Shown: piece by piece, positions 4,504 through 11,455 of the stretch | How positions within the stretch are numbered: the first letter of the stretch is position 1 | How the letters are laid out: each line of letters opens with the position of its first letter | NCBI RefSeq assembly: GCF_018882245.1 | Contig: NZ_JACVOV010000001.1 | Location: forward strand, 558,001 to 622,000 | DNA length: 64,000 bases | Source: Polynucleobacter sp. AP-Capit-er-40B-B4 | Lineage (GTDB): Bacteria; Pseudomonadota; Gammaproteobacteria; Burkholderiales; Burkholderiaceae | Direction of reading: 5' to 3' | Position numbers and translations under genes: made by a program | The notes under the pieces: model-generated | Databases searched by the model: none | What the model was told of the DNA's origin: nothing | The model's input: only the letters and a program-made list of their open reading frames with translations

Positions 4504-5012
4504 TCATTGTTTGCAAGACCTCATAAAAACCGTACTACCGTTTTATGCTGCATTGCAATATCTTAAAAACATGGGTCATCCTAAGAAGATTCTTATATCA
4601 AGTCAAGAATAAAGAAGTAAGAAGCCATAACTTATTGATCTAGAAATCCGGGAGTTCCCGGATATGCACCCTAAAAATCATATATAAGCTAATAAAATCA
4701 ATAACTTATAAAAGTTAGGAGGCGCTAATTTCACTCTATAAAAAAACCATCTAAGAGAGACTTTTTTACGTTTTTCCACAAATTGTGAAGCCCAAAAACC
4801 ATACATCTAGTGTTTTCATGACTCCATTTTTCTAGGGGTAGTAGGCAATCAGGGCCTACTGCAACGCGCCATCTACTAAAGCAGATAGGGCGATACGCGG
4901 CACTTAAGACAAAGAAATTGGACTGCAATGTCGAGATTTCTTATTAGCTATGGAGCTAGTTCTAGATAAAAATTTGGCATCGCCGCAAGGAGAGGTCCTA
5001 CACTTAGAACCC

Positions 5013-6041
5013 ATGAAGTTTCTGCGTAGCCTACTGACCCTTGCGGCCCTCCTCTCTACCTCATTACATGCTTTTGCAGCCTTTGAAGACTGCAAGGATC
5101 TCTTTCCTCGCCAGCAAATACCGGTAAGCACTCAAGCTGGACGAGACCTCTGCTTCGACAGCTTTGCGATTTATTACTCACCTCAAGATAAGAAACCCAT
5201 CTACACGGTAGAGAAACTCAACAAGGAGCAATTTTCTACCCCGCACCCACGCAGAAGCAATCAGTTTTATGAAGAGGCCAGATTGCCATTCTCTGAGCGG
5301 GCCCTACTCTCAGACTACCGTGGTAGCGGCTATGACCGTGGCCATAATGCACCTGCAGGCGATATGAGCAATGAACGTTCAATGGCCCAATCATTCTCAT
5401 TGGCAAACATGATGCCCCAGGCAAGACAAAATAATCAGGGCATCTGGGCGAAGAATGTTGAGGAGCCTACACGAGCCTACGTTAAAAGAGCTGCTGGCGA
5501 TATTTATGTATTTACTGGCTCCACCGGCAATGCTGGAAGCATTGGCAGAAGTCGCGTGACAATTCCGAGCCATCTTTTCAAGCTGGTTTATGACCCCAGC
5601 AAAAATACTGCATGGGCTTACTGGATTGAGAACACCAATGAAGCCAACATGACTCCCCCCATTAGCTATCAAGAGTTGGTACAAAAAACGGGGATTGATT
5701 TTCAAATACCCGGAATTGATGATGCGATCAAGCTGGGTGCTATAACTGCGGAACCCTTGAAAAAACAGGGCCTGAAGCCATTGATTGGTGGCTGGTATCC
5801 AGTATTTTTTGATGCATATTCTTCAAGCAAGCTCAATGGAGTCATTGAGAACATCAAGGCGGGTAAGGTGGAGAGTATTCAAGTTCAATATGACCGTAAT
5901 GAGAGTCTCGCGAAACAAATCGTCTTACAAATTGAATCTCAGACCAATCTCAAGGTAAGCTTGATGCAAAGCAGTCCACCAGAATCTGCAACAGTGACCT
6001 ACGAACGCAATCGCGTCACCCTCATTATTCGCTCAAAGTAA
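5013..6041 (+). CDS. Secreted DNA/RNA non-specific endonuclease (NucA/NucG family)
   Basis: From internal ATG 5013 (MKFLRSLLTLAALLSTSLHAFAA) a signal peptide precedes GYDRGHNAPAGDM (DRGH motif) and SFSLANMMPQARQNNQGIW. ORF track starts at 4950. Confidence 0.9.
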   Translation: MKFLRSLLTLAALLSTSLHAFAAFEDCKDLFPRQQIPVSTQAGRDLCFDSFAIYYSPQDKKPIYTVEKLNKEQFSTPHPRRSNQFYEEARLPFSERALLSDYRGSGYDRGHNAPAGDMSNERSMAQSFSLANMMPQARQNNQGIWAKNVEEPTRAYVKRAAGDIYVFTGSTGNAGSIGRSRVTIPSHLFKLVYDPSKNTAWAYWIENTNEANMTPPISYQELVQKTGIDFQIPGIDDAIKLGAITAEPLKKQGLKPLIGGWYPVFFDAYSSSKLNGVIENIKAGKVESIQVQYDRNESLAKQIVLQIESQTNLKVSLMQSSPPESATVTYERNRVTLIIRSK

Positions 6042-6350: not shown

Positions 6351-6398
6351 TTGAGAATCATTCTCATTTAGTGTTATATTGAGAACCGTTCTCATTTA
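6351..6398 (+). promoter_or_regulatory. Two tandem Fur-box-like operators
   Basis: TGAGAAT-C-ATTCTCA (6352-6366) and TGAGAAC-C-GTTCTCA (6380-6394), both perfect 7-1-7 inverted repeats with centres 28 bp apart, just upstream of the ORF at 6424. Confidence 0.78.
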
Positions 6399-6423
6399 GA
6401 TTAATAACCAAACTACTAAAAAG

Positions 6424-7338
6424 ATGAAATTCAACCTCAAAAAACTACTCGCCTTTACCTGTTTTATAGCCGCTGCCATCCATTTTTCACTCGCCCATGC
6501 AGGAGAGGGGACATTTGGCTGGATTTATACGCTTGATCTACAGCCAAAGGGGAGTATTGAGTTTGAGCAGCGCCTGCAATTAAATAAACAACAGGCAAGT
6601 GGTTCATACAATGCATGGCTCTCAAGAACAGAGCTTGAGTATGGTGTTACCAATGATTTTCAAATTGCCGGTTACTTAAACGCCTATTACGTTAATGCGA
6701 ATCAAAATTACACTAATCCCGAGGCCTGCGGTGACGCAGCCACCTGCACTGGTGGACAACCCGTTCCTGAAGGTCACAACCCTGCTGCGCCATTTCGTAA
6801 AAGTGGTGTTGAGGGTGGATCATTAGAGGCGATATACCGCATCACCAATCCCGTCACCTCACCAGTTGGGGTGGGTCTTTATTTAGAACCCACACTTGGT
6901 AGAAATAAAAACGAAATTGAAGCAAGACTCTTATTGCAATCCAACTTTATTGACGATCGTTTAGTTGTTGCTGGAAACGTTGTAGTTGCTAATGAACAAT
7001 TAAAATTTGTTGGGAATGGCAACGTACCAGAATCAATGCTGGATTTCTTGGTTGGCGCCAGCTATCGCTTCGCCCCCAAATGGTCTGCAGGTGTAGAAGC
7101 GCGCTTCCATAATGACTACTCTAGCTACAACCTCCAAAACCAAGTTCAAAAGGCAACATTTGTAGGGCCAAACGTTCACTATGCAGCTAAAGACTGGTGG
7201 ATCACCGGCGCATGGCGCTATCAATTAAAAGGCAATACATGCATGGGCGATGGCACTGCTGAATGCTCTAACGCACGAGTCTGGGATAGCCACTCAGTAA
7301 ATGAATTCATCGTCAAAGTTGGCTTCCCCCTTAATTAA
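6424..7338 (+). CDS. Exported protein, DUF6662-like, probable outer-membrane beta-barrel
   Basis: Signal peptide; FGWIYTLDLQPKGSIEFEQRLQL...LSRTELEYGVTNDFQIAGYL; alternating amphipathic strands; C-terminal EFIVKVGFPLN. Confidence 0.7.
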   Translation: MKFNLKKLLAFTCFIAAAIHFSLAHAGEGTFGWIYTLDLQPKGSIEFEQRLQLNKQQASGSYNAWLSRTELEYGVTNDFQIAGYLNAYYVNANQNYTNPEACGDAATCTGGQPVPEGHNPAAPFRKSGVEGGSLEAIYRITNPVTSPVGVGLYLEPTLGRNKNEIEARLLLQSNFIDDRLVVAGNVVVANEQLKFVGNGNVPESMLDFLVGASYRFAPKWSAGVEARFHNDYSSYNLQNQVQKATFVGPNVHYAAKDWWITGAWRYQLKGNTCMGDGTAECSNARVWDSHSVNEFIVKVGFPLN

Positions 7339-7350
7339 AAGAAAGAACTT

Positions 7351-7530
7351 ATGGAAATCCAGAATCTATTAGTTGCAGCCCTCACTCACTTGGTCAAATT
7401 TCAAGCTACGCAATGCCAAACAGCTAGGCAAAGAGCGGTAATGATGTTTGAAAAACTATCCACTCTTCAAGGCGTTAACCCAGAAATCCAGGCGCTTTGT
7501 AATGAAGCAAACGAATTACTTACCGCATAA
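7351..7530 (+). CDS. Small hypothetical protein (59 aa) in the flavinylation operon
   Basis: MEIQNLLVAALTHLVKFQATQCQTARQRAVMMFEKLSTLQGVNPEIQALCNEANELLTA*; below the ORF-track length limit; 12 bp after the previous stop and 8 bp before the next ATG. Confidence 0.65.
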   Translation: MEIQNLLVAALTHLVKFQATQCQTARQRAVMMFEKLSTLQGVNPEIQALCNEANELLTA

Positions 7531-7538
7531 AAGAAATC

Positions 7539-8111
7539 ATGATTTGGAAACCTTACCCGTTAGCTGCAATTGGCATAGCAATGATGAGTGCACCCATCAT
7601 TGCCCATGCAAAAATTTATATTTCTGTAGAACAGGCACAGAAGATTCTCCTTCCTAATAAGGCGCTCTCAAAGACGCCCATCATCATTACCGATGACCTG
7701 CAAGAAAAGATGCGCGTGGCATCTAGCATTCGTCACCCTTTTCAAGGAGATCGCATCTGGAGAGCATCTGACGGTAGTTGGCTTGTCATTGATGAAGTGG
7801 TTGGCAAGCACGAGATGATTACCTATGCAGTTGCCATCAATCCCAATGGCAGCATCTCCGGCATCGAAATACTGGAGTATGTAGAGTCTTATGGCTATGA
7901 AGTGTCTGAGGCGCAATGGCGTAAGCAATTTATTGGCAAGACTGCGAATGACCCTATTAAGCTCAATCAGGACATTCAAAATATTGGGGGAGCCACCCTC
8001 TCTTGCAAGCACCTCACTGATGGTGTGAAGCGAGTTGCCGTTTTATATGAGCTAGCTCTTAAGAACACCTCTTCGCCAAGCGCCCAAACCCAAACTATCA
8101 AAGCAAAATGA
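7539..8111 (+). CDS. Periplasmic FMN-binding (FMN_bind) domain protein
   Basis: Signal peptide; GGATLSCKHLTDGVKR fits the [DS]GA[TS]xx[ST]-type flavinylation motif (candidate residue Ser155, codon 8001-8003); directly followed by apbE. Confidence 0.82.
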   Translation: MIWKPYPLAAIGIAMMSAPIIAHAKIYISVEQAQKILLPNKALSKTPIIITDDLQEKMRVASSIRHPFQGDRIWRASDGSWLVIDEVVGKHEMITYAVAINPNGSISGIEILEYVESYGYEVSEAQWRKQFIGKTANDPIKLNQDIQNIGGATLSCKHLTDGVKRVAVLYELALKNTSSPSAQTQTIKAK

Positions 8112-8932
8112 TTCGTTGCAAACCCCTGCTAGGGACTTTTGTTGAAATCTCTATTCGAGAGAATGAAGATGGATTGGAGGCGATTGAAAACGCGTTTACT
8201 GCAATTCAGAAAGTCCACGACCTCATGGGGTTTCATAATCCCGAGAGTGAACTCAGCCTCATCAATCAACTTGCCCACAAGGAAGCCGTTGAAGTTCATC
8301 CGTGGACAGCCCAAGTAATCAAGATTGCTAAAGAAGTTTATTTGGCTTCAGATGGTCTATTCAATTGCGGCATTGGCCATCGCCTCGTTGCTGCAGGCTT
8401 ATTACCGCGACACATCACTTTCACAAACCATGAGCTTGGCGGTATTGAAGATATACAGTTTTTGGCGCCTGACCTCATCAAATCAGATCGACCAGTGTGT
8501 CTGGACCTTGGCGGCATTGCTAAAGGGTTTGCGGTTGATATGGCAGTGAGAGTATTAATCTCTGAGGGATTAACATCGGGCTCCGTCAATGCTGGTGGTG
8601 ACTTACGGGTCTTTGGCAAAACCGCATTACCAATTCAGATCCGCAATCCAGAGTTTCCTGAAAAGCTGATTGAGATTGGCTCCTTGAAAGATGGCGCTAT
8701 TGCAACTAGCAGTCTTTACTTCGCAAAAAGAGATCAACAGTTAAGCCACATCATTAATCCCCTGGCCCAGCATCTTTCTGAAGTACACGCTGAGGTTTTA
8801 GGCTCATTCTCAGTTCTTGCTAAAGAGTGTGTCTATGCAGACGCTCTCACCAAAGTTCTAGCCTTATCCAATAATGAGTATCACCCCTGTTTCACACGGT
8901 TTTCAGCACAAGCTTTGAGAATTGCCGCATGA
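8108..8932 (+). CDS. apbE: FAD:protein FMN transferase
   Basis: MIRCKPLLGTFVEI, NCGIGHRLVAAGLLP, VCLDLGGIAKGFAVDMAVRVL, GSVNAGGDLRVFG, ApbE signatures; 4 bp overlaps with both neighbours. Confidence 0.94.
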   Translation: MIRCKPLLGTFVEISIRENEDGLEAIENAFTAIQKVHDLMGFHNPESELSLINQLAHKEAVEVHPWTAQVIKIAKEVYLASDGLFNCGIGHRLVAAGLLPRHITFTNHELGGIEDIQFLAPDLIKSDRPVCLDLGGIAKGFAVDMAVRVLISEGLTSGSVNAGGDLRVFGKTALPIQIRNPEFPEKLIEIGSLKDGAIATSSLYFAKRDQQLSHIINPLAQHLSEVHAEVLGSFSVLAKECVYADALTKVLALSNNEYHPCFTRFSAQALRIAA

Positions 8933-9354
8933 GCCGCCTTGGAAAAATGCCGAACTGGCAAAGAAAGTTTGTGATTGTTGGGATGATGACCTGCTCTATT
9001 ACAGGCCTTATGTATCTACTAGGTCATCAATTTCAGATACAGCGAACCACTCTTGGCACTCATAGCATCCTAGCTGCCCATGGCATCGCCGCTATGCTGG
9101 CAATCTTGGCTCTTGGATCGGCGCTACCGTTTCATATCAAAGCGGGCTACAAGTCCAATAGGAAGCGCTGGAGTGGCTTTAGTCAATTAAGCTTTTTAGC
9201 AGTACTGCTAGTTACAAGTGCGCTGCTATATTACGGCCCCGAAGAGGTTCGCGACATTACGATCGATACCCACTGGATGACTGGCTTACTCTTCTTTGTT
9301 ATTTTTTTGCTGCACGCATTTCAAAAACTGCGTAGCACCAACCCACACAGCTAA
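8929..9354 (+). CDS. Four-TM, His-rich integral membrane protein (DUF4405 / cytochrome b-like)
   Basis: 141 aa, four hydrophobic helices with intramembrane or boundary His residues (GTHSILAAHG, LPFHIKAG, DTHWMTG, FLLHAFQK). Confidence 0.7.
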   Translation: MSRLGKMPNWQRKFVIVGMMTCSITGLMYLLGHQFQIQRTTLGTHSILAAHGIAAMLAILALGSALPFHIKAGYKSNRKRWSGFSQLSFLAVLLVTSALLYYGPEEVRDITIDTHWMTGLLFFVIFLLHAFQKLRSTNPHS

Positions 9355-9359
9355 AGAAC

Positions 9360-9671
9360 TTACTTCTTGCAATAGTGCTTATAGAGCAGACTCATGACTG
9401 CTACAGCTACTTCACTAGCTAGAGAATAGTAAATCTGCTTACCTTCTCTGCGTGTCTTTACCAACTTTTCTGTACGAAGCACAGTTAATTGCTGTGATAG
9501 CGTAGGCTGATGTAGATCTAAAGCGGCTTCTAGCTCGCTCACACACTTTTCACCTTGGCCAATTTCACATAAGAGCATCATGCGGTCGCTATTTGATAAG
9601 ACTTTCATTAACTTGCAAGCATCAGCGGCCGACGCCTGCATTTTCTTGAGCTCGGATTTTGTAATAGTCAT
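9360..9671 (-). CDS. ArsR-family regulator, BigR/SqrR-like
   Basis: ACKLMKVLSNSDRMMLLCEIGQGEKCVSELEAALDLHQPTLSQQLTVLRTEKLVKTRREGKQIYYSL; adjacent to a persulfide dioxygenase-like gene. Confidence 0.85.
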   Translation of the reverse strand: MTITKSELKKMQASAADACKLMKVLSNSDRMMLLCEIGQGEKCVSELEAALDLHQPTLSQQLTVLRTEKLVKTRREGKQIYYSLASEVAVAVMSLLYKHYCKK

Positions 9672-9672
9672 A

Positions 9673-10545
9673 TTAGAGAGCGTTTAAAGGAATTTTTAAA
9701 TAGGATTTGCCATTAGCTTCTGGCTCAGGCAGATGACCTGCACGTATATTGACTTGAATGGATGGCAATATCAGAGTAGGCATATCTAGAGTCGCATCGC
9801 GCTTACTGCGCATTTGCACAAATTCTTCCTCGCTGATTCCATCGTGCACGTGGATATTGGATTTCTTCTCCTCACCTACCGTTGTGCAATAGGCTTCAGG
9901 ACGATCTGTTGGCGGGTAGTCATGACACATGTATAGCTTTGTCTCGTCAGGATAAGCCAATACTTTCTGAATAGACCGATATAAAGTCTGAGCGCTACCG
10001 CCCGGAAAGTCGCAGCGCGCCGTACCAACATCAGGCATGAAGAGGGTGTCCCCAACAAATAATGCATCCCCAATTTCATAAGCCATGCAAGCAGGTGTAT
10101 GGCCAGGCACATATAAGGCTTTTAAGGAGAGATCACCAAATTGCAAAGATTCACCGTCTTTTAATAAGTAGTCAAACTGAGATCCATCAATAGAAAATTG
10201 CTCATCAAGATTAAAGACACCCTTAAATACCTTTTGCACATTAGTAATATGATCGCCAATGACAATCTTGCCACCCAATTTACTTTGAATATAAGGTGCC
10301 GCAGTTAAGTGATCGGCATGTGCATGAGTTTCAAGTACCCAAGTTAGCTGTAATTGCTCGCTTTGAATAAAGCCAATCACTTCATCAGCAGACTCAGTGG
10401 AGGTTATGCCTGACTTAGGGTCATAGTTCAATACGGAATCTATGACTACGCAGGGACTTTTCTTGCCCGCATAAACCACATAGGTAAAAGTCCAGGTTTC
10501 TGGATCAAAAAACGCCTTAACGTCAGCACTCAATTTTGGGTTCAC
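9673..10545 (-). CDS. MBL-fold persulfide dioxygenase / Blh-like hydrolase
   Basis: ETHAHADHLTAAPYIQ, VPGHTPACMAYEIGDALFVGDTLFMPDVGTARCDFPGG. Confidence 0.88.
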   Translation of the reverse strand: MNPKLSADVKAFFDPETWTFTYVVYAGKKSPCVVIDSVLNYDPKSGITSTESADEVIGFIQSEQLQLTWVLETHAHADHLTAAPYIQSKLGGKIVIGDHITNVQKVFKGVFNLDEQFSIDGSQFDYLLKDGESLQFGDLSLKALYVPGHTPACMAYEIGDALFVGDTLFMPDVGTARCDFPGGSAQTLYRSIQKVLAYPDETKLYMCHDYPPTDRPEAYCTTVGEEKKSNIHVHDGISEEEFVQMRSKRDATLDMPTLILPSIQVNIRAGHLPEPEANGKSYLKIPLNAL

Positions 10546-10636
10546 GGCAGACTTTCCTAAAAATATCCTAATTACCGCTCTAAAAGAGTAATTGATATAT
10601 ATATTTATATATTATCTTAATATAAAATTAATTGCA

Positions 10637-11455
10637 ATGGACTACTCGATCTTTATCAGCCCCGCCCTAGGCCTTATCGTAGGTTTACTAATGGGTCTTA
10701 CCGGCGCAGGAGGCGGCATACTGTCTGTTCCTCTGCTGGTTTTTGTCCTACATCTACCGGTAGCCGAAGCAGCGCCAGTCTCGCTCTCAGCCATTGCTCT
10801 ATCTGCAGGTGTGGGCGCACTACTGGGATTAAAAAATAAAATTTTGCGTTATCGCGCTGCAGGCTTTATGGCCGCATTTGGACTTCTCCTCTCGCCATTA
10901 GGTCTTTGGGTGGCACAACGAGTTCCCAACGCACCGCTACTAATTCTTTTTAGTGCCACGCTATTTTTTGTCTCTACCCGTTTACTACTTCAGGCGAGAA
11001 GAGAAATTCTTAAACTCCCCAGGAAAAAGCGTAAGCCACCCCCATGCCTACTGAATCCAGAAGTAGGTAAATTGAGTTGGAATATTCCCTGCGCTAGGTC
11101 ATTAATGCTCTCCGGAAGTTGGGCTGGCTTTCTGTCGGGACTATTGGGAGTTGGTGGCGGCTTTGTCATTGTCCCGGCATTGAAACGCTATACAGACTTG
11201 CAAGTGCAATCGATTGTTGCAACCTCGCTGGGCGTGCTTGCCATTATCTCTGGCGGTGGCGTAGTCTTTTCTGCAGTCTCAGGCAATTTGGATTTATCGC
11301 TTGCAGCACCCTTTTCTTTAGGGGCTCTATGTGGCCTTCTGATTGGAAGAGCACTAGGTAAAAAATTAAGCGGGCCAAGACTCCAGCAAATCTTTGCCAT
11401 ACTCACCTTTGGCGTTGCAATCAGTCTTACTATCAAGGGCGTTAACGCCTTATGA
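10637..11455 (+). CDS. TauE/SafE (TSUP) family sulfite/organosulfonate exporter
   Basis: MDYSIFISPALGLIVGLLMGLTGAGGGILSVPLLVFVL and GFLSGLLGVGGGFVIVPAL; ATG at 10637 is preferred to the TTG at 10592 used by the ORF track. Confidence 0.87.
   Translation: MDYSIFISPALGLIVGLLMGLTGAGGGILSVPLLVFVLHLPVAEAAPVSLSAIALSAGVGALLGLKNKILRYRAAGFMAAFGLLLSPLGLWVAQRVPNAPLLILFSATLFFVSTRLLLQARREILKLPRKKRKPPPCLLNPEVGKLSWNIPCARSLMLSGSWAGFLSGLLGVGGGFVIVPALKRYTDLQVQSIVATSLGVLAIISGGGVVFSAVSGNLDLSLAAPFSLGALCGLLIGRALGKKLSGPRLQQIFAILTFGVAISLTIKGVNAL

Follow-up and report, generated by a model that had tools for sequence, protein, structure and literature searches.

What a flavin transferase, its putative substrate, a small membrane protein and an outer-membrane barrel do together behind two Fur-type operators is the question raised by an operon of Polynucleobacter sp. 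AP-Capit-er-40B-B4. The operon occupies positions 6351-9354 of the stretch analyzed here (the window; 64,000 nucleotides, positions 558,001 to 622,000 of contig NZ_JACVOV010000001.1), and the analysis was based on searches of the 2.04-Mb genome (10 contigs) and on stretches read from it. We consider it likely that this is a Fur-repressed operon for reductive iron assimilation, by which electrons would cross the inner membrane and convert insoluble Fe(III) to soluble Fe(II) that can be imported. The five open reading frames (ORFs) are close-packed on the + strand behind a single promoter (Table 1). In operon order, they are separated by +12 bp and +8 bp and then joined by two 4-bp ATGA overlaps, and the operon is limited at its 3' end by a convergent ArsR-type gene on the minus strand (9360-9671). 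They code for a DUF6662 barrel, a 59-amino-acid (59-aa) protein, an FMN_bind protein, an ApbE flavin transferase, and a 4-helix membrane protein. A preliminary description of the locus had reported five tightly packed same-strand ORFs. This arrangement is confirmed, with three of the products scoring above the Pfam cut-off (bits/cut-off: DUF6662, 40.8/27; FMN_bind, 41.5/22; ApbE, 141/25.6); no Pfam family matches the 59-aa ORF or the 4-helix protein above cut-off. The FMN_bind protein is 96% identical to its counterpart from Polynucleobacter yangtzensis.

ApbE proteins attach flavin mononucleotide (FMN) to the threonine of motifs such as that described below, FMN_bind proteins carry electrons, and FeoB imports Fe(II). 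Under iron shortage, iron-loaded Fur would be released from the operators, of which the first overlaps the -35 element and the second abuts the -10 element. The 4-helix protein, a predicted di-heme b cytochrome, would then take electrons from the quinol pool, a donor suggested by the fact that the protein has no domain binding nicotinamide or flavin adenine dinucleotide (NAD or FAD). Electrons would pass to FMN covalently bound to Thr153 of the periplasmic FMN_bind protein, and the flavoprotein would reduce Fe(III) to Fe(II), the Fe(III) probably being supplied in organic complexes that enter through the 12-strand barrel of the outer membrane. Import of Fe(II) would be the task of FeoAB, which is encoded away from the operon in this genome. 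The 59-aa protein may be an accessory common to tonB/hemP-type operons.

The two perfect 7-1-7 operators claimed in the preliminary description are present and are separated by a spacer of 13 bp. They flank the promoter TTGAGA-18 nt-TATATT, which is the best sigma-70-like sequence of the region (10 of 12 consensus matches), and a single Fur-family protein is encoded in the genome. In the whole genome, TGADAAYNRTTHTCA is matched without mismatch at three sites, two of them being the operon pair. The third (L004, genome C1:634289) is located ~145 bp upstream of a gene for a protein resembling high-potential iron-sulfur proteins (HiPIP-like). With one mismatch allowed, 25 matches were obtained genome-wide compared to 20 for a reversed control, which is chance level. 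The genes adjoining these sites mostly have no obvious iron link, except for feoA, which has a one-mismatch box ~45 bp upstream. A pattern with up to three mismatches proved useless for detecting Fur sites (30 matches in the window, 23 by chance).

Because one-mismatch sites are at chance level and single weak sites mean little, conservation across species was taken as the better test. Up to 200 bp upstream of the barrel gene were scanned for TGANAATNATTNTCA with at most one mismatch, and the expectation was derived from dinucleotide shuffles. Such a box was found in 60 of 74 loci (0.25 expected), with 0/19 for a control promoter of those loci. Nearly all Polynucleobacter-like loci have the box (54/55), which does not amount to 54 independent events since these loci are related. 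In an alignment of 16 orthologous promoters, the columns that are conserved correspond to the boxes and to TATATT. Of 82 loci from outside the main genus set, 19 carry a box with one mismatch or none (~0.1 expected), while some lineages have no box of this kind near the first gene. The spelling of the box differs between lineages (TGATAAT...ATTATCA in Acinetobacter, TGCGAAT...ATTCTCA elsewhere), which argues for its repeated maintenance. The preliminary description had named a general lack of Fur boxes in homologous operons as the outcome that would speak against it, and these counts are of the opposite kind. The comparison supports conservation of Fur-type control across orthologous loci, and Fur presumably binds to the two operators.

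The FMN_bind gene was detected in 34 of the 40 Polynucleobacter genomes sampled. One Polynucleobacter locus (L077) carries a decaying operon in which the matches to barrel, FMN_bind, and ApbE are broken into pieces. That the module is not confined to Polynucleobacter had been missed by the preliminary description. Named relatives are from Acinetobacter, Variovorax, Dechloromonas, Aquabacterium, and Methylotenera, together with a few metagenome-assembled genomes (MAGs) assigned elsewhere. Strong profile matches were obtained for ~60 of 399 genomes of the order Burkholderiales and for 13 of 399 genomes across the phylum Pseudomonadota, five of the latter from the same genus. Of 83 neighborhoods from beyond the main genus set, 73 have the gene for the 4-helix protein, 71 have ApbE, and 67 have both; an outer-membrane channel is encoded in 58 (43 DUF6662, 17 porin O/P). 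All four parts are present in each of the six phylum-wide additions. Comparison thus supports the view that the FMN_bind protein, ApbE, the 4-helix protein with its four histidines, and an outer-membrane barrel form a recurring unit beyond Polynucleobacter. There is also a second architecture, in which a MauG-type peroxidase and a porin O/P are encoded upstream of the FMN_bind-ApbE-4-helix unit (L064, L065, L070, L233, L244, L246, L251, L255, L264, and L265).

A neighborhood search for FMN_bind, ApbE, and barrel with Fur motifs, as proposed in the preliminary description, recovers not only this recurrence of the module but also links to iron genes (feoA/feoB, heme oxygenase, tonB/hemP). The gene for FeoB comes right after the module, on the same strand, in L155 (Azonexaceae, with one unassigned frame in between), L162 (a Dechloromonas MAG whose contig stops within FeoB), L236, and L240 (where FeoA precedes FeoB). 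The linkage perhaps represents two lineages since L236 and L240 share a family. For the congener P. asymbioticus, ferrous uptake was reported to be the only kind known (PMC6629928), which we count in favor of reductive assimilation.

ApbE and the FMN_bind protein are each the sole member of their kind in the genome and are thus considered a dedicated pair. Among solved structures, the FMN_bind profile finds RnfG and NqrC, at remote sequence similarity. Ser155, proposed as the flavin site in the preliminary description, has to be replaced as the predicted site by Thr153 (GGAT153), which is invariant in 83/83 relatives in the profile alignment. We infer that covalent FMN is attached to Thr153 by the ApbE of the operon. 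According to the flavinylation rule D-x-x-[S/T]-G-A-[S/T], the modified residue is the last one (PMC12052999). The seven residues ending at Thr153 are Q-N-I-G-G-A-T, with Gln at motif position 1 and Gly at position 4, where 73/83 relatives have Ser. A conserved Asp, D145 (75/83), precedes Thr153 by eight residues, compared to six in the rule.

In all Polynucleobacter orthologues, ApbE starts straight at the catalytic domain. No signal peptide extension was found upstream in the orthologues of the genus: the frame either closes within a few codons or continues without a hydrophobic stretch. A crude hydropathy filter was passed by two of 65 wider ApbE relatives, and one of these two is an artefact that stems from the choice of start. 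The sequence therefore does not support a simple scheme in which ApbE flavinylates its partner in the periplasm. At the position of Lys249, which we take to be the metal-ligand position of the ApbE family, 70/70 aligned relatives have Lys and the solved ApbEs have Thr; the metal-site Thr is retained in other Burkholderiaceae ApbEs. Absence of a visible signal also holds for ApbEs of this bacterial family whose genes adjoin PepSY/flavodoxin-reductase genes (L192, L194, L206), so that the localization puzzle is wider than this operon. A cytosolic ApbE is known in Klebsiella (PMC12052999). Given this enzyme and the signal-less, PepSY-linked ApbEs, the missing signal does not refute the system.

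For the 4-helix protein, the preliminary description had proposed four transmembrane segments with heme-type histidines. The model has four helices (predicted local distance difference test, pLDDT, 84), while the set of conserved histidines had to be corrected to H51 and H69 in helix 2 and H115 and H129 in helix 4, all invariant in 73/73 relatives. For the helix-2 pair, a regular expression gave 45/73, a spacing artefact, and the profile alignment (73/73) was used instead. Since helices 2 and 4 are parallel, two bis-His sites are predicted, H51/H115 and H69/H129, with one lying close to each face of the membrane; this pairing is deduced from helix order rather than from coordinates. The best solved fold is FdnI (1kqf_C; template modeling (TM) score 0.68, probability 1.00, E 0.16, 14% identity). 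The protein is predicted to be a di-heme b cytochrome. Assignment to DUF4405 (15.8 bits, cut-off 26.7; four helices, not six), to PepSY_TM (E 0.73; 10 bits, cut-off 28.8), and to NnrS or cytochrome b561 (both below cut-off) was rejected.

The barrel was modeled with 12 long strands (AlphaFold2 pLDDT 84.8), and Foldseek matches it to FapF, NanC, and a COG4313 channel (E down to 2e-10). According to this model, it is a channel type without plug and not a TonB receptor. The 59-aa ORF, which is missing from some Polynucleobacter, is a real gene judged by its 17 orthologues, which show zero indels, 78% mean column identity, two invariant cysteines (C22, C50), and a ratio of nonsynonymous to synonymous substitution rates (dN/dS) of 0.02-0.15 where computable. 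Its product has no obvious membrane helix. Weak homologues (E ~1e-6) that retain the C...C pattern plus flanking residues are encoded behind Fur-like boxes; in L278, the gene immediately precedes tonB and exbB, and in L279 it immediately precedes hemP, then tonB, and then an ExbB-like ORF (by eye). A family of small two-Cys proteins related to the 59-aa ORF is found behind Fur-like boxes in L278, L279, and L280; a further homologue (L281) proved spurious on alignment.

Several observations weigh against reductive iron assimilation as proposed here. ApbE appears to lack a signal peptide, in contrast to the FMN_bind protein with its Sec-type signal, and no route for ApbE to the periplasm is visible. 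H214 of this ApbE aligns with His257 of Vibrio cholerae ApbE, the general base of that enzyme (PMC12052999), and is not conserved among the relatives. Two features of a typical ApbE are thus absent: an N-terminal secretion or lipoprotein signal, and a metal-site Thr combined with a conserved catalytic His. The predicted flavin site is non-canonical, as it deviates from the strict motif. The fold match of the 4-helix protein to FdnI is not significant by its E-value. FeoB linkage is found in just 4/83 loci, and P. asymbioticus, which may or may not carry the operon, is stated to be unable to use Fe(III) from the medium (PMC6629928). Finally, the acceptor could differ where a MauG-type peroxidase adjoins the module.

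This last point leads to the alternative that survives best, although we regard it as unlikely. The module could be an iron-sparing redox branch, in which a flavin carrier replaces c-type cytochromes and feeds a non-iron periplasmic acceptor, for example a peroxide reductase. It would be under Fur control because it saves iron and not because it reduces iron. Exchange of flavin and cytochrome carriers has been described in respiratory systems (PMC8238504), and some relatives have the MauG-type di-heme peroxidase and porin beside the module, with a perfect Fur-type box in two of seven (L244, L265). However, the operon described here contains no reductase or peroxidase gene, iron uptake is suggested by the links to FeoB/FeoA and heme oxygenase and by the small ORF linked to tonB, and such a module would still need two hemes.

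Somewhat less probable still is that the iron is reduced while bound in a chelate taken up by the cell, either heme or a hydroxamate siderophore, so that the system would release iron from heme or xenosiderophores as has been proposed for FoxB and HiuBC. In Variovorax (L167), a heme oxygenase is encoded downstream of the module, relatives of the small ORF lie beside tonB/exbB and hemP, and TonB-receptor-like ORFs with modest scores occur ~4 kb downstream in L222 and L225. Moreover, HiuABC couples a PepSY reductase and a 61-residue protein to FeoAB (PMC13001220). Yet the barrel is predicted to be a 12-strand channel without plug, the operon has no TonB receptor, and the stretches read around the four TonB-dependent receptors of the genome (L099-L102) contain no Fur-type box with two or fewer mismatches. 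That copper or another metal is the substrate, with Cu(II) being reduced so that it can be imported or used in assembling enzymes, a reaction of which PepSY_TM proteins are capable, is very improbable: a PepSY_TM protein is reported to support heme-copper oxidoreductase function in Bordetella (PMC13038864), but the operators are of Fur type, the linkage is to an Fe(II) transporter, and no recurrent copper gene was recognized in the neighborhoods read by eye or searched by family.

In flavinylation-based extracytosolic electron transfer, apbE lies beside an FMN_bind-type gene and a transmembrane carrier is encoded alongside, as is the case here. A signal peptide is expected on ApbE and/or its substrate (PMC8238504), and the FMN_bind protein has one of the Sec type (by eye). 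We file the module as a variant of this class that is separate from the PepSY/DUF2271 and DUF4405 types, because it fails their defining tests and differs in its parts from HiuABC. Features in common with the PepSY-like/DUF2271/DUF4198/ApbE clusters (PMC8238504) are an ApbE, a small exported protein as putative substrate of flavinylation, a carrier in the inner membrane that is predicted here to be of heme type, Fur-type control, and the link to iron; for clusters of the PepSY/DUF2271 type, repression by Fur is known from Caulobacter (CC_3060-3063, PMC3751524) and Shewanella. An ApbE without visible signal peptide is likewise found in PepSY clusters of this bacterial family. In contrast to the PepSY/DUF2271 type, the substrate here is an FMN_bind protein and the operon has no DUF2271, the carrier is the 4-helix protein (PepSY_TM E 0.73 only), and the outer-membrane barrel and the 59-aa protein stand in place of DUF4198.

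DUF4405 cytochromes are likewise small membrane proteins with four conserved histidines and apbE as a genomic partner, but they have six helices (PMC11334425), compared to four here, and the score of 15.8 is well short of their cut-off of 26.7. HiuABC of Caulobacter (PMC13001220) and FoxB share with the module as read here a Fur-regulated reduction at the inner membrane that is proposed to feed FeoAB, and a small accessory protein of similar length. They differ in having a TonB receptor and a PepSY protein and neither FMN_bind nor ApbE, and HiuC is a membrane protein, unlike the 59-aa ORF. RnfG and NqrC have the FMN_bind domain and covalent flavin on Thr, which is predicted here, but are only remotely similar in sequence and belong to Rnf/Nqr complexes, which are absent here. 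Di-heme cytochrome b subunits of the FdnI type share the four-helix fold (TM 0.68), but at a Foldseek E of 0.16 and 14% identity, and the operon has no dehydrogenase partner. The module may even represent a further class, defined by a four-helix di-heme carrier, a cytosolic Lys-type ApbE subfamily, and an obligatory outer-membrane channel, with reduction of Fe(III) taking place at the outer membrane or further out. The channel would then let the flavoprotein, or electrons from it, reach iron outside the cell, as opposed to periplasmic reduction; we hold this to be a possible but doubtful extension. The kinds of parts are individually known, and no description of their combination was found in the open-licence literature. 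Within that literature, we found no paper on DUF6662 and no description of the operon in Acinetobacter or Polynucleobacter, an earlier account elsewhere being possible.

Table 1. Features of the operon, with positions in the window
Feature	Position	Strand	Basis or remark
Sigma-70-like promoter	6351..6380	+	-35 TTGAGA in box 1, 18-nt spacer, -10 TATATT abutting box 2; consensus scan
Fur-type 7-1-7 operator 1, TGAGAATCATTCTCA	6352..6366		Perfect palindrome
Fur-type 7-1-7 operator 2, TGAGAACCGTTCTCA	6380..6394		Perfect palindrome
DUF6662 outer-membrane beta-barrel, 304 aa	6424..7338	+	Pfam DUF6662; AlphaFold2; Foldseek
Putative N-terminal signal sequence of barrel protein	about 6424-6501	+	By eye
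59-aa protein, invariant C22 and C50	7351..7530	+	17 orthologues, purifying selection
Exported FMN_bind protein, 190 aa	7539..8111	+	Pfam FMN_bind; Sec-type signal by eye
Thr153 codon, predicted FMN-bearing residue in D-x-x-N-I-G-G-A-T	7995..7997	+	Thr invariant 83/83
ApbE flavin transferase, 274 aa, without signal peptide, begins MIRCKPLLGT	8108..8932	+	Pfam ApbE
Lys249 codon, at the metal-site Thr position of solved ApbEs	8852..8854	+	Lys in 70/70 aligned relatives
4-helix membrane protein, 141 aa, predicted di-heme b cytochrome	8929..9354	+	Model; His invariant 73/73

Further genes flank the operon. The neighboring region 9360-11455 looks like a sulfide-response cluster: it codes for a regulator of the ArsR type that is close to BigR, a TauE/SafE exporter, and a metallo-hydrolase with a match, below cut-off, to the model of the Blh persulfide dioxygenase. 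Upstream, on the operon strand, is a gene for a DNA/RNA non-specific endonuclease (4950-6041). Its position is kept in most Polynucleobacter loci, whereas no such gene was detected next to the operon in other genera.

For bacteria with few iron-uptake genes, such as the abundant freshwater Polynucleobacter, the operon would provide a testable route to the use of Fe(III). It would give a likely role to the DUF6662 barrels and to an unnamed 4-helix family, and it raises the question of how a signal-less ApbE serves an exported partner. Because the module is also found in Acinetobacter and many Burkholderiales, a single result would transfer widely.

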